Positions 41,244-45,936 of a stretch of 64,000 nucleotides of DNA are shown here, one piece after another. Source of the stretch: Sphingobacterium sp. PCS056 (GTDB lineage Bacteria > Bacteroidota > Bacteroidia > Sphingobacteriales > Sphingobacteriaceae); assembly GCF_023273895.1 (NCBI RefSeq), contig NZ_CP096883.1, positions 1,116,001 to 1,180,000 of the forward strand, given 5' to 3'. Position 1 is the stretch's first letter. Each line of letters opens with the position of its first letter. The notes beneath the pieces are model-generated. The model was not told the origin of the DNA. It did not search any database and worked only from the letters and a program-made list of their open reading frames with translations. Position numbers and translations under genes: made by a program.

Positions 41244-42017
41244 TTAATTGATGTACGATCCAATCGCCGAAATCCATTCTTTATACAAGCCTTGCTCTAT
41301 AGCCTGTATATCCTCGGCATAGCGTTCCCAATTGGGCGAAAACAGTTGAAGCTGAGCAGTCATTTCTTCCAGATGCCCTTCTTCTTCGAGAATGATAGAT
41401 TTTACCATTACTTTGCTTTGCTCTAGGTCGAGTGTATGTTGATAGATGGGATAAAGTTGATCAGCACGAACCTCAATAGCGTAAGTCACAAAGAGGTAAG
41501 CCGCATGCTTAAGCGCTGGTCCGCAGAGATTAAAAGTATCTTTGAGGTAACGGCAAGATTTAATATCCAACTGATGTAGGTATTGTCTGGTATATCTTGG
41601 AGCAATGAGATACTTGTCGTCATAAGTCTTGCACATATCGTTACTTAATTTTCCAATCTGTTTTTTCAGATAGTACGCATGCCGGTGTTCTTCAGCGGCA
41701 TGTTTGAGCTGAATAATATCTACTTTTGTGGAGTGTTCACATTGTGATATTTTTCTAGCACCGGCATTTTCCATAAATGATAGTGTGTTCAACCACTTTG
41801 CGTGCAGTTGATCTTGTTGGACAATATGTCGGATTACTTGGTGAATATCCATAGCCTTAATTTTGAGACAAAGGTATTGCCCTAGTAAACACGTATCATG
41901 TGCCAGTTTTAATTTTTCAGCTAGTCCGGATGAAAAGCTTATTAAATTTGTTAAGAATCGAAGTTTTTTATTTTTTGTGTTATTTAATTCTGATAGTGAG
42001 TCGATTATGTCATTCAA
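41244..42017 (-). CDS. ferritin-like di-iron protein of unknown function in the biotin operon
   Basis: The 257-residue, all-helical protein carries the ligand pattern of di-iron four-helix bundles: Asp69-xx-His72 (QQDQLH), Glu110-xx-His113 (AEEHRH), Glu182 (AIEVRAD) and Glu212-xx-His215 (EEEGHLEEM). I do not recognise the family by name; relatives of this fold include hydroxylases, desaturases and oxygenases. The TTG start overlaps the Cas12f-like gene by 8 bases, and the stop lies 9 bases before bioF, so it is embedded between the guide-type module and the biotin genes. No bioC, bioH, bioW or bioZ is in the window. A role in making the pimeloyl moiety is a hypothesis; a partner of the RNA-guided module is the alternative. 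Confidence 0.65.
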   Translation of the reverse strand: MNDIIDSLSELNNTKNKKLRFLTNLISFSSGLAEKLKLAHDTCLLGQYLCLKIKAMDIHQVIRHIVQQDQLHAKWLNTLSFMENAGARKISQCEHSTKVDIIQLKHAAEEHRHAYYLKKQIGKLSNDMCKTYDDKYLIAPRYTRQYLHQLDIKSCRYLKDTFNLCGPALKHAAYLFVTYAIEVRADQLYPIYQHTLDLEQSKVMVKSIILEEEGHLEEMTAQLQLFSPNWERYAEDIQAIEQGLYKEWISAIGSYIN

Positions 42018-43104
42018 TGATCACGTGGATTCCTGCCAATTTTGCTTTGTATTTGATCTTTTCCATGAGGCCGTAGTAGCTCCAATTACGCAGTAGGAAG
42101 TCATCCTCTTTGGCTAATCGTTCTTTGTTAGATTGATTGACCAAGAGCAAGGTACCTGCTTGCGATTTGATACATATATCAATAAGTCTACGGCTGTACA
42201 GGTGTAGTCTACTATCGACATAGTTTTTTTCTTTTTCATGATAATGATCGAGACTTTTGAGTTTTCTTTTTCTTCCATTTCCACCCTTATTATAGGTGGA
42301 AGCTTTCTGTAGGCGATATCTAGCAGCCTGTATCGCTATACGTCGGTATAGAAACTCCTCTTTTGAGCCGATCTGATAGTTGTCTCTATCAATAGCCACT
42401 GAAATCGGATGTTCGATGGATAATGATGCTTCGGCGATGATATGTTTGTTTAGTGTATGTTCTTTATTGGGTATTTCTAGTGCGAGGAGTATAAATATCT
42501 TGCCTTTTACGATTTTAATGGAACTTGCACAGATTTTGAGTTGGCCGATCAATGCGCGTTGCAGAAGTACGCGTTTATCGGTTCTATCTTTTCCTAAATA
42601 AGTGCGGAATGGGATTTTAAAGAGATTCAGTTTAAAATCTCGGCTATGCTCATCATGACTTAATTTAAGTGACCGAGAAGAAAAGGGAATAGGCATATCT
42701 TTCTTATAATTGCGCAGGGAACGCTGTCCTTTCCAATATGCTAAGCGGTCAGATTGAAAATTTTTTATCAGAGAAGTATTCACCTTCGATAATATATCAG
42801 TAGGAATCTGTCCTTTAAAATAGCTTGAGAGCAGTCGGTATGTGGTATTCATACGTGACGTGTTTAGTATTCCCTCCCCATCAGTACTGCTATCGGTTAA
42901 TGTTACTTTAACATCTGTTTTGAGGTAGATCAGATCTTTTATATTTTCTTGTACATATTGATGCGTAAGCACTAGATTTGCTCCCCGATACACAATATCT
43001 TGCCATTCGTATAATTTTTTGAAATATTCACTACGTTTTTCTTTATCATCGCAGTCGATAAAAATTTGAATTTTGCGAGTTAATATAGTCGTTTCACTGG
43101 CCAT
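42010..43104 (-). CDS. nuclease-dead Cas12f-family protein
   Basis: The 364-residue protein matches small Cas12f / TnpB-type proteins. It has a helical N-terminal part with EWQDIVYRGANLVLTHQY (33-50) and the Cas12f-like YWKGQRSLRNYKKDMPIPF (123-141). A wedge-like beta segment (SSIKIVKGKIFILLALEIP, 194-212) and a RuvC-like region follow: HPISVAID (232-239, Asp239 at the RuvC-I position) and a bridge-like basic helix (NGRKRKLKSL). The RuvC-II strand AGTLLLVNQ has Val322 where the catalytic glutamate belongs, and WSYYGLMEKIKYKAKLAG aligns with the segment before the zinc finger. The protein ends at residue 364, before zinc finger and RuvC-III. It should bind RNA and DNA but not cut. The sigma-like gene lies 11 bases upstream. 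Confidence 0.82.
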   Translation of the reverse strand: MASETTILTRKIQIFIDCDDKEKRSEYFKKLYEWQDIVYRGANLVLTHQYVQENIKDLIYLKTDVKVTLTDSSTDGEGILNTSRMNTTYRLLSSYFKGQIPTDILSKVNTSLIKNFQSDRLAYWKGQRSLRNYKKDMPIPFSSRSLKLSHDEHSRDFKLNLFKIPFRTYLGKDRTDKRVLLQRALIGQLKICASSIKIVKGKIFILLALEIPNKEHTLNKHIIAEASLSIEHPISVAIDRDNYQIGSKEEFLYRRIAIQAARYRLQKASTYNKGGNGRKRKLKSLDHYHEKEKNYVDSRLHLYSRRLIDICIKSQAGTLLLVNQSNKERLAKEDDFLLRNWSYYGLMEKIKYKAKLAGIHVIIE

Positions 43105-43115
43105 AATCCTTTACT

Positions 43116-43928
43116 TTAAGCAATTTGTTTACTAGGTTTTATTTTACTGTGCGCTTCTACAAATAACTTTTTAACGGTCGTAGGATCTAATTGTAGCTGT
43201 TGTGATATTTGCTCGAAAGACAACTGTAGTTCATAGCGCATGTGAAATATCTCGAATTGTTCATCCGTAAAATTTCCTTGCGCTATCATCTTTGGATTTT
43301 TGCTCACCTGACCTATTTTTTGATTACTGTTTAAGATCGCACGTAGCGTTCCAATTGTTTTTTCCACCTGCATATTGACTTCATAGTCCGATATGCCACC
43401 CAGATAATAAGCTATTCGTTCATAATTGAAGCTGTATTGTAGGCAAAGTTTAATGAAGAGCTGCTGTTCGATATTTAATGAAGGCAACAGGGTGTATATT
43501 TTATGTAGTTTATCCTTATTCTCATCCTCTAGTCTTTCCACATCGATCAAGTCTTCGACACACTCTTCTTTCGGCTCATATTCGTCCCTAAACTCTTGTT
43601 GATTTTTGAATGCATCTAGCTGTAAAAGACTTCTGTGAAAACGATTTCTAGACTTGTTGTAGTATGCATGGACTGCCATGCGAATCTGAGTTTTTAGAAA
43701 GTTGAAAATATCTGCTTCGCTATGTACATTTTCGCGAAATAGCCACAAGCGCAAGAAAGCTTCCTGGGTGATACTCTCTGCAATGCATGTATCCTGTATT
43801 GCACGGTTGGCTCTGCGGTAGCAATAAGGATAGAAGTGCTGGTAGAAAAAGTTAAGTCCCTTCTCTATGCCATTGTTCAGATAAGTAATTTGAATTTTGG
43901 TATTTTTTTTAATGTAAAGTTTGTTCAT
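43116..43928 (-). CDS. ECF-type sigma factor with duplicated sigma-4-like region
   Basis: The 270-residue protein has a sigma-2 domain at about 20-95: FFYQHFYPYCYRRANRAI, ESITQEAFLRLWLFRENV, and FNFLKTQIRMAVHAYYNKS in the -10-binding helix region. A charged linker (110-145) leads to a first sigma-4-like helix-turn-helix (about 147-200, LPSLNIEQQLFIKLCLQY, YERIAYYLGG) and a second one (about 218-264, FTDEQFEIFHMRYELQLSFE, ISQQLQLDPTTVKKL). No anti-sigma gene is adjacent. It heads a run of seven genes reaching bioA. Pairing with the dead Cas12f protein suggests recruitment of RNA polymerase by an RNA guide. Confidence 0.8.
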   Translation of the reverse strand: MNKLYIKKNTKIQITYLNNGIEKGLNFFYQHFYPYCYRRANRAIQDTCIAESITQEAFLRLWLFRENVHSEADIFNFLKTQIRMAVHAYYNKSRNRFHRSLLQLDAFKNQQEFRDEYEPKEECVEDLIDVERLEDENKDKLHKIYTLLPSLNIEQQLFIKLCLQYSFNYERIAYYLGGISDYEVNMQVEKTIGTLRAILNSNQKIGQVSKNPKMIAQGNFTDEQFEIFHMRYELQLSFEQISQQLQLDPTTVKKLFVEAHSKIKPSKQIA

Positions 43929-44246
43929 ATTTCGATCTCTAATTGGTTGAAGATTAAAAAAAAACGTAGTCAGCTCCTATTTCGGTGGATTTTTTTATGG
44001 GTCGAAGCAGGACAAGTTGAGTGATTTATGAATGGGCAAATTGGTATTGAAGTGAAAAATGGGAATCTGATTTTTTTTAAAGGGCTGCTATTCTTTTTAA
44101 AGTCCTTTTAATTTTGAAAGGTCAACAAAAGGCTACTTAACTCAAAATTCAATGTTGTAATGACAGGCTATATAGCTATGAAAAGTCAAGCTTATATATC
44201 GCTATATTAAAACTTAAAGAAATAATTTAAGTCTTTTTTTAGGTCT

Positions 44247-44296
44247 TTAGTGAGTGGCTATTGCCCTCACCCTACGGCTGTACAAGCAACCTCCAT
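44247..44296 (+). ncRNA. candidate guide-RNA scaffold, copy 1
   Basis: Shares about 42 of 49 positions with copy 3. A hairpin GTGAG-t-GGC/GCC-CTCAC is followed by CCTACGGCTGTACAAG and CCTCCAT, after which similarity stops. The next 15 or so bases (ACATGTTTTATAAAA) are unlike the other copies and would be the guide; an ATTAGAT/ATCTAAT hairpin follows at 44312-44331. The strand is chosen because conservation extends upstream and ends on this side. Confidence 0.5.
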
Positions 44297-44394
44297 ACAT
44301 GTTTTATAAAAATTAGATCAGGATATCTAATCGCTAACTTTCTCACCATACAATTTATATCGCTCAATCGTAGACTATATCTTCAAGCACGATC

Positions 44395-44461
44395 AGGGTT
44401 AGCGGTAACAGGTAAGGGCATGTGCTCTAGCCCTACCTTGCTACCGTGCTCAATTAACCCT
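44395..44461 (+). ncRNA. long imperfect hairpin, possible structured RNA
   Basis: Arms AGGGTTA/TAACCCT, GGTA/TACC, AGGTA/TACCT and GGGC/GCCC nest around a 10-base loop with small bulges, about 20 pairs in all. There is no T-run on either side, so it is not an ordinary terminator. It lies between candidate scaffold copies 1 and 2 and could be a tracrRNA-like or other structured transcript; strand is uncertain. Confidence 0.4.
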
Positions 44462-44656
44462 AAAGAGTTAAGTTCGCAATATTCTTAATTAATCTTTGGT
44501 AAACCTGCAATTTTCCGGTGAGCTGCTACGATAGGAATATCTCCTCATCAGACCAGCTCCATACTCGATAAGTATAAAAGTCCTTTGTTGTATATACCAG
44601 TGAGCCTATAATTTTAACAAACATAGCAGGGTTTTATTAAAATATAGTTAGGGTAC

Positions 44657-44706
44657 TTGATGAGGCGATTAAACACTCACCCTGCGGCTATACAAGTCGC
44701 CTCGAT
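44657..44706 (+). ncRNA. candidate guide-RNA scaffold, copy 2
   Basis: The core ACTCACCCTGCGGCTATACA, then AGTCGCCTCGAT, matches the other copies, while the left hairpin is replaced by a longer-range stem GAGGCGA/TCGCCTC that pairs across the core. The bases after CCTCGAT (GCCTATGCTGTATGAGTTTG) are unique; they can also form a hairpin CCTATGCTG/CAG-A-CATAGG, which complicates the reading as a free guide. Confidence 0.42.
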
Positions 44707-45092
44707 GCCTATGCTGTATGAGTTTGCAGACATAGGACATGTCGTTCTTCATGGTAGATGAATGTGTCATATTAAGGTGTCAAGTATAAAAATATGTCGC
44801 GCCAATATGTAATAGTAATCAATAATGAATGAGATTATTAATGCAATTATATAATGGTTGTGATAGTTTAAGTTTCATCATTAATTAAACTTAAACATAA
44901 TTGTGTATCGCTTCAAAATTTGGGGTCATAAACAAGACCAATATGAGTAGACCCTAATTATATGTTTACCAATGCAATTTTGGAAAACATAAAATAGGAT
45001 CAAAATCCATGATCATCTCATCTAGATGTGGCCAGTAGCTTTAACTATTGGAGTATATAACTCATGAATGGACCTGTTTAATTTTAAAGTAT

Positions 45093-45141
45093 TTAGTGAG
45101 TGGTCATGCCCTCACCTTACGGCTCCACAAGAAGCCTCGAT
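45093..45141 (+). ncRNA. candidate guide-RNA scaffold, copy 3
   Basis: Closest to copy 1. Hairpin GTGAG-t-GG/CC-CTCAC, then CTTACGGCTCCACAAG and CCTCGAT. A second small hairpin GGCT/AGCC is present. The following bases (CTTTCAATACCAGTATGTCA) differ from the other copies. Ten of them (TTCAATACCA) recur on the minus strand at 44042-44051, upstream of the sigma gene. Confidence 0.5.
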
Positions 45142-45459
45142 CTTTCAATACCAGTATGTCAAAGAACTTGCAAATGGAATCGGTCAATTTGGTAGAAAAA
45201 TAACATCAGTTGTTTTTTACACAAACAAGCACATTTCCTTATTCTTACATTCTAACGCGATCGCTTAAGGATTATAATTGGTAAAGTAGTCCATAATATA
45301 GATCGGTTACTTATCTTTTTTTAATATCATCATATATTTATTCAAATTGCTGATGATGCTTGATATCGATACAAATATAATAGTAATTGGATTATTGAGC
45401 AAATAAAATTACACTTTTATTTATATTTTATTTGCGCAAATAATTATTCTATTTGTTAC

Positions 45460-45936
45460 GTGTCAAGTAATAATGAAAATACAATTATAGATATTGGGAT
45501 CCGGTTTCGTAAACGAAGAGATGATTTGCGCTACTCTCAACGAGATGTCGCACATATGACCGGACTTACTATCAATACCATTGCTGCGGTTGAAAAAGGA
45601 AAGGGTACAACCATCTTCAATTTCTTATCGATCTGCCGTGCCTTAAAGATTCAACCTAAATCAATTTTTGAAAAAGAAATAGATTTAAAACCCTTATATG
45701 ATATTGAGCCAGAATCTAAACGGCGCATTGAAACAACACAAAAGCTAGATGATTTGGTTTATAATTCTGACTTTTTTGACACCCGAAGACGTGTCTCGGA
45801 AGTATTGGCCAAACTGAAATCGGATAAAAATGACAGTAATAAGTTTTCTGTTTACCTAACAGAATATTGTAAGCATGATGTGTTAGAATATGAAAAAGTA
45901 GGCAACTTTAAGCTGTATATAAAAAAACTAAAATAA
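45460..45936 (+). CDS. XRE-family HTH regulator
   Basis: The 158-residue protein has an N-terminal helix-turn-helix (about 10-70: IGIRFRKRRDDLRYSQRDVA, TGLTINTIAAVEKGKGTT, CRALKIQPKSIFE) and a charged C-terminal part without known domain. GTG start; no upstream ATG is in frame. It faces away from the sigma gene across the 1.5-kb element-bearing region. It could control that module, but its neighbour on the other side is the unrelated LytTR pair, so this is only a possibility. Confidence 0.75.
   Translation: MSSNNENTIIDIGIRFRKRRDDLRYSQRDVAHMTGLTINTIAAVEKGKGTTIFNFLSICRALKIQPKSIFEKEIDLKPLYDIEPESKRRIETTQKLDDLVYNSDFFDTRRRVSEVLAKLKSDKNDSNKFSVYLTEYCKHDVLEYEKVGNFKLYIKKLK

Follow-up and report, generated by a model that had tools for sequence, protein, structure and literature searches.

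Transcription directed by a nuclease-dead Cas12f (dCas12f) that is linked to a sigma factor is a very recent subject, for which the closest described example is the dCas12f-RpoE complex in the protein data bank (PDB IDs: 9n9c, 9n9m, 9n9o, and 9n9q). A 2025 preprint by Hoffmann et al. is said to treat such proteins as exapted homologs of CRISPR (clustered regularly interspaced short palindromic repeats)-Cas12f, with dCas12f and RpoE acting in RNA-guided transcription. Among related systems, TldR proteins are nuclease-dead TnpB repressors of flagellin genes that exert guide-directed control of a host gene and are not known to have a sigma partner, and Type V-F CRISPR-Cas12f combines the Cas12f fold with a trans-activating CRISPR RNA (tracrRNA) and repeat-spacer arrays. 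Here, we analyzed a locus of Sphingobacterium sp. PCS056 in a 64,000-nucleotide stretch of its genome (contig NZ_CP096883.1, positions 1,116,001 to 1,180,000; hereafter the window, to which coordinates refer unless a genome is given), where a sigma factor gene precedes a Cas12f-like gene, and which very likely represents a dCas12f-sigma RNA-guided transcription module with guide genes of its own.

Like the dCas12f-RpoE complex, this locus encodes a dCas12f that is homologous over its full length and equal in size, together with a partner of the RpoE type. It departs from that complex in the sequence of its dCas12f (~54% identical), in having three tracr-guide units, each separate, that follow a boxA-like leader, in its antisense match to a receptor under riboswitch control, and in its biotin-operon neighborhood. 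TldR is likewise a dead nuclease of the TnpB/Cas12f lineage, though the window differs in having an adjacent sigma gene as well as tracr and repeats of the CRISPR type. With Type V-F, the locus shares the Cas12f fold, a tracrRNA, and, in relatives, the repeat-spacer arrays; in contrast, the catalytic residues are gone, cas1 is absent from 13 of 14 genomes, and those spacers with a match aim at host genes.

A preliminary description of this DNA had named an extracytoplasmic function (ECF)-like sigma gene followed after 11 bases by a Cas12f-family gene on the same strand, and both genes, with their families, were confirmed by profile and PDB matches.

43116..43928, minus strand: ECF-like sigma factor, 270 residues, homolog of the RpoE chain in PDB 9n9q
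42010..43104, minus strand: nuclease-dead Cas12f, 364 residues, with RuvC-I Asp replaced by Ser, RuvC-II Glu replaced by Asn, and RuvC-III and the zinc finger absent

The sigma protein matches the NCBIfam sigma70-ECF model (1.7e-15) and Pfam region 4 (9.9e-7), region 2 spanning residues 28-88 and region 4 approximately residues 221-264. Moreover, it aligns with the RpoE chain 9n9q_C over residues 39-269 (E 1.1e-28), and a PDB sequence search at E 0.1 returned no chain besides 9n9q RpoE. For the Cas12f-like protein, the match to the NCBIfam TnpB family (4e-15) lies under the curated cut-off of that model, and the nuclease-deactivated Cas12f chains of the PDB (9n9c and three more) match far better (E 1e-127, residues 4-363 of 364), the closest solved structures being 9n9c and 9n9m at ~54% identity over the full length. 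In an AlphaFold2 model built from 25 orthologs (mean predicted local distance difference test score of 79), the best solved fold was 9n9m, a dCas12f-guide RNA-DNA complex with a partial R-loop (E 1e-37, 54% identity), and the model thereby upholds the Cas12f fold. Judged from these matches, the pair belongs to the known dCas12f-RpoE kind.

The earlier claim that RuvC-II and RuvC-III are lost also stands, and extends to RuvC-I, i.e., to all three sites. With Cas12f 9nzo as the alignment reference for the catalytic positions, the RuvC-I aspartate aligns with a serine (AEASLS) and the RuvC-II glutamate with an asparagine (LLVNQ), and the chain stops ahead of the zinc finger and RuvC-III. These losses are found in nearly all of the 25 aligned orthologs, and since all 25 stop at the same place, the truncated end is not a frameshift. 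The active RuvC nuclease expected of Type V-F CRISPR-Cas immunity is accordingly missing here.

A homolog of the Cas12f-like gene was found in 55 of 251 genomes of the family, and the 29 loci in named genomes are mostly from Sphingobacterium, with others from Aequorivita and Leeuwenhoekiella. The sigma homolog lies upstream and on the same strand in 48 of 49 neighborhoods (at most 50 bases away in 42), at least one guide scaffold is present in 47 of the 49, and the open frames are kept at 43-91% identity across many genomes. The pairing of sigma and Cas12f genes is not a matter of chance. As for the gene order that was to be sought in relatives, the sigma-Cas12f part recurs, but the biotin-operon context is confined to four genomes among the loci examined.

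What the preliminary description left out was the guides, for which three tracr-like units lie upstream of the pair on the sigma strand.

45146..45167, minus strand: boxA-like leader GTTCTTTGACATACTGGTATTG, ahead of the first tracr unit and in the same place in 28 loci
45089..45138, minus strand: tracr-like unit 3 (two hairpins and the start of the anti-repeat)
44900..44935, minus strand: degenerate CRISPR-like repeat of unit 3 (...GACCCCAAATTTTGAAGCGATACACAAT), pairing with anti-repeat CTTTAAAATT
44880..44899, minus strand: guide 3 TATGTTTAAGTTTAATTAAT, with seed TATGTTTA[AT]GTTTA
44653..44703, minus strand: tracr-like unit 2
44567..44586, minus strand: guide 2 AAAGGACTTTTATACTTATC (after GGTATATACAAC), with seed AAAGGACT
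44243..44293, minus strand: tracr-like unit 1
44137..44153, minus strand: guide 1 ATTGAATTTTGAGTTAA (after CATTACAAC), 17 nucleotides, with an exact match at G000:C1:793067-793083
44099..44108, minus strand: 10-nucleotide match to the guide 2 seed (AAAGGACTTT), sense, ~180 bases upstream of the sigma gene

Between the sigma gene and a divergent helix-turn-helix (HTH) gene, a 35-nucleotide repeat occurs in three diverged copies, and this repeat unit was found again in nearly all relatives. Read on the sigma strand, the unit has the form GAGGC..CTTGT..GCCGTAGGGTGAG-loop-CTCACTAAATAC. Over 40 distinct sequences from relatives, pairing within its two hairpins holds in 93% of cells, two-sided changes number 67 (18 in shuffles), and the covariation score is 0.398 as against 0.137, a signal abolished by sliding the partners. 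A cognate, structured guide-RNA gene is therefore present at the locus, as three tracr-repeat-guide units with strong covariation. Across the loci examined, 116 tracr units are on the sigma strand and none is on the opposite strand. This rules out a guide on the plus strand (after ACAAG), a candidate also contradicted by the strand of the boxA-like leader and by the matching guide after CATTACAAC on the sigma strand. A guide directly 3' of CTCACTAAATAC was rejected as well, that stretch being the anti-repeat.

In relatives, CRISPR arrays follow the scaffold on its 3' side, with degenerate 36-nucleotide repeats (GGTGTTACTCACCACAATTTGAAAGGTATACACAAC and clade variants) that recur every 66 nucleotides and enclose 30-nucleotide spacers. 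At its end, the scaffold has ATACCTTTT or ATACCCT, which is complementary to AAAGGTAT or AGGGTAT of the repeat and co-varies with it between clades, and for this reason we read this end as the anti-repeat. The window has one degenerate repeat and one guide per scaffold, although unit 1 of the relatives G247 and G190 apparently has two repeats, and on this comparison the window arrays are eroded to single guides. Cas1 was not found in this genome or in 12 of 13 relatives searched, and the adaptation module of Type V-F immunity is accordingly lacking in the window's genome. We also observed second copies of the dCas12f gene that are broken by in-frame stops (G190:C32:279877-280965, locus L124; locus L053; G229:C1:587437; G247:C1:1174139-1174653). 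Six scaffold units persist beside the broken copies at L053 and L124, so that guide genes may outlive the protein gene or serve an intact copy in trans.

The boxA-like element, approximately G[TC]TCTTTGACNTATTGGTATTG, lies 7-65 bases ahead of the first unit in 28 loci, and ahead of no later unit. Elements of the boxA type that precede CRISPR arrays have been described, the Legionella form being GTTCTTTAAAA (PMC7862264, citing Stringer et al.), and by analogy the element here is a probable antitermination leader of the guide transcript. The full 22-mer has no second copy in the genome, and its identity with the rRNA leader is hence unsupported. Between units 2 and 1 (44380-44440), there is also a near-palindromic stretch (GAGCACGGTAGCAAGGTAGGG...CCCTTACCTGTTACCGC), possibly a terminator or a processing site, that S. 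faecium has almost unchanged and G247 in similar form. Separately, window positions 44990-45023 have a 34-base match of 88% at G000:C1:249344-249377 (locus L061; E 2.7e-4), in an anti-sigma-like gene region and within a gene adjoining another sigma-like gene. It was ruled out as a guide target, as the window side falls between the unit 3 scaffold and its repeat, where no guide position exists.

Guide 1 has one exact match besides itself in the 5.2-Mb genome, as against 0.004 expected by chance. The match lies directly ahead of the ATG, in the 5' untranslated region (UTR) of a gene for a TonB receptor (its barrel recognized by Pfam at 2.4e-21), and upstream of this receptor is a thiamine pyrophosphate (TPP) riboswitch (RF00059, E 1.8e-7, 45 bits, under the family gathering score of 54). 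The same arrangement of match and receptor is found in S. faecium, G190, and G247. When 94 congeneric genomes were searched for the 16-mer TTGAATTTTGAGTTAA, it occurred exactly twice (guide and target) in five, was absent from 89, and never occurred once; the fifth genome, G252, which is close to G190, carries its two copies at the corresponding places. All 17 guide bases are invariant among the guide copies, and the sequence that follows differs. Guide 1 corresponds to the antisense strand of the receptor, an orientation for which activation of the TPP-linked receptor offers no explanation. Going by the orientation of the match, the most likely outcome would be reduced receptor expression, through either a roadblock or transcription in antisense.

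Guides 2 and 3 have seeds of 8 and 13 nucleotides, respectively, common to three related species. Neither gave anything above chance when compared with that SusC-type locus in this genome where a 124-residue gene is present. The 10-nucleotide match to the guide 2 seed upstream of the sigma gene is present in the window and in S. faecium, and weakly suggests a possible autoregulatory site. The idea that array spacers autoregulate the sigma gene as a general rule was rejected, since among all arrays tested no sense seed match exceeded 7 nucleotides.

We searched about 80 spacers of relatives in six genomes and inspected 12 places outside the arrays that matched 20-30 nucleotides, several of which link the spacer of one species to the genome of another. 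Seven of the 12 precede operons for SusC-type TonB receptors by 130-780 bases, in the direction of the operon, and three more are 2-2.7 kb upstream of SusC-type genes in the same direction. The exceptions are a match in G205 that crosses the start codon of a LytTR response regulator (Pfam) in antisense, and a 30/30 match in G220 within the era GTPase gene, in sense (G220:C3:32677-32700; locus L166, 5678-5701), its spacer being a host-derived one in a genome that lacks cas1. With the spacers of four more genomes, no additional self-targets were found, so that most spacers have no visible target at the sensitivity used. On the position and direction of these matches, activation of SusC-type operons by guides is well supported in relatives. 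At the target loci themselves (L167, L168, L169, L171, L172, L173, and L175), a 124-residue gene with no Pfam family often stands before the receptor, frequently as the first gene of the operon, small HTH-like genes are often on the divergent side, and the SusC-type receptors have an unusual N-terminal extension ahead of a hydrophobic stretch.

In the mechanism we propose, a transcript would begin upstream of the boxA-like leader and read the sigma strand through the three tracr-repeat-guide units, each of which would fold into a guide RNA bound by dCas12f. By analogy with the dCas12f-RpoE complex, we infer that dCas12f then brings the sigma factor, and thereby RNA polymerase, to guide-matched DNA. 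Guides that match upstream of SusC-type operons in relatives, directed at the gene, would start transcription of these operons. In the present genome, guide 1 would bind the antisense strand of the receptor 5' UTR just before the start codon and lower receptor expression, as a roadblock or through antisense transcription beginning beside the riboswitch. The preliminary view that the pair acts in RNA-guided transcription thus agrees with the sequences, the fold, the lost nuclease residues, the sigma pairing, the guide RNAs, and the sense spacers upstream of SusC-type operons. Guide matches that lie upstream of host genes in the transcribed direction are seen in relatives, at SusC-type operons. 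The one clear target of this genome is antisense, which activation of that gene would not account for.

Several observations weigh against this reading. The orientation of guide 1 is unlike that of most matched targets of relatives, the five genomes that carry it are related and, as two hardly differ at the locus, stand for four lineages at most, and the short 5' UTR of the receptor is conserved throughout, beyond the 17 guide bases. The unit 1 anti-repeat is weak in the window strain, a genome search with guide 2 at three mismatches gave no more matches than the reversed control, and guide 3 gave only AT-rich matches at chance level in a whole-region search. The base before the target was mixed in the 12 candidate targets, with none fixed, and was A at the guide 1 target; the minimal 5'-G target-adjacent motif reportedly found in published dCas12f-sigma systems, which may or may not extend to this clade, was not seen.

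For guide 1, the chief alternative, conceivable though on balance unlikely, is that a divergent operon (amidohydrolase, acylphosphatase, and flippase-like genes) on the antisense side is activated rather than the receptor repressed. If transcription follows the direction of the guide, as the SusC targets of relatives suggest, it would set out next to the riboswitch and lead from the receptor toward this operon, whose distance from the target (~790 bases) compares with up to 780 bases there, and which is kept in the four species examined. However, the stretch from riboswitch to operon is poorly conserved, and the target is placed exactly at the receptor start. That placement, together with the antisense match across the LytTR regulator start codon in G205, would also suit a plain RNA-guided repressor, with dCas12f blocking RNA polymerase and the sigma gene merely expressing the locus. 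We regard this as improbable, given that the sigma gene is adjacent in nearly all loci, that its only PDB homolog was deposited in the same entry series as dCas12f, and that most matched targets of relatives are in sense upstream of SusC-type genes.

There is very little to recommend the view that the guide RNAs are ordinary antisense RNAs acting on mRNA independently of the protein pair. Guide 1 is indeed complementary to the receptor mRNA just before its start codon, but the units carry a conserved, covarying scaffold beside dCas12f genes, and the SusC-type targets, being in sense, leave their guides unable to pair with the mRNA. Least credible of all is a decayed remnant of a defense CRISPR system with no present function, which the reduction of the window arrays to single guides and the broken copies in some relatives (the second copy of G190, and G229) might bring to mind. 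The preserved open frames, the covarying RNA, and the conserved guide seeds speak against it, and the RNA-guided transcription module remains the reading that we prefer.

Two neighboring genes were also noted.

41244..41852, minus strand: ferritin-like protein, a neighbor outside the module that probably heads the biotin operon
45460..45936, plus strand: divergent gene for an XRE-type HTH protein, whose place at the outer end of the guide region is kept in many loci of Sphingobacterium

The ferritin-like protein has weak Pfam matches only (Rubrerythrin, COQ7), is encoded directly ahead of bioF, and is possibly a biotin-synthesis enzyme that substitutes for a known early step. The pair had been described as heading a seven-gene run that ends in the biotin operon. 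The seven genes are collinear but may or may not share a transcript, given a gap of ~157 bases after the Cas12f gene, as measured to ATG 41852, most likely the start of the third gene, because homology in G190 begins there. Among the loci examined, those where the biotin operon adjoins the pair are confined to the window, S. faecium, G190, and G247 (where only bioB and bioA were seen downstream). This context is thus limited to a small clade with nothing pointing to function, and the neighborhood is local and probably incidental.

To what is known of dCas12f-sigma systems, this locus may add a natural guide-target pair with strong comparative support, the layout of its guide genes and the strand they occupy, a leader that probably acts in antitermination, and, in relatives, regulatory arrays that lack cas1. 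It is plausible, if short of probable, that these together form a CRISPR-derived host regulon, in which host-matching arrays without cas1 would be read as one boxA-led transcript, and a single dCas12f-sigma complex would exert both signs of control set solely by guide orientation, sense guides upstream of SusC-type operons switching nutrient receptors on and antisense guides placed at a start codon, like that of the TPP-linked receptor, switching them off. Whether one complex may activate or repress according to the orientation of its guide is the question that this raises, and the natural guide-target pairs render sigma-linked transcription by a dead Cas12f testable.
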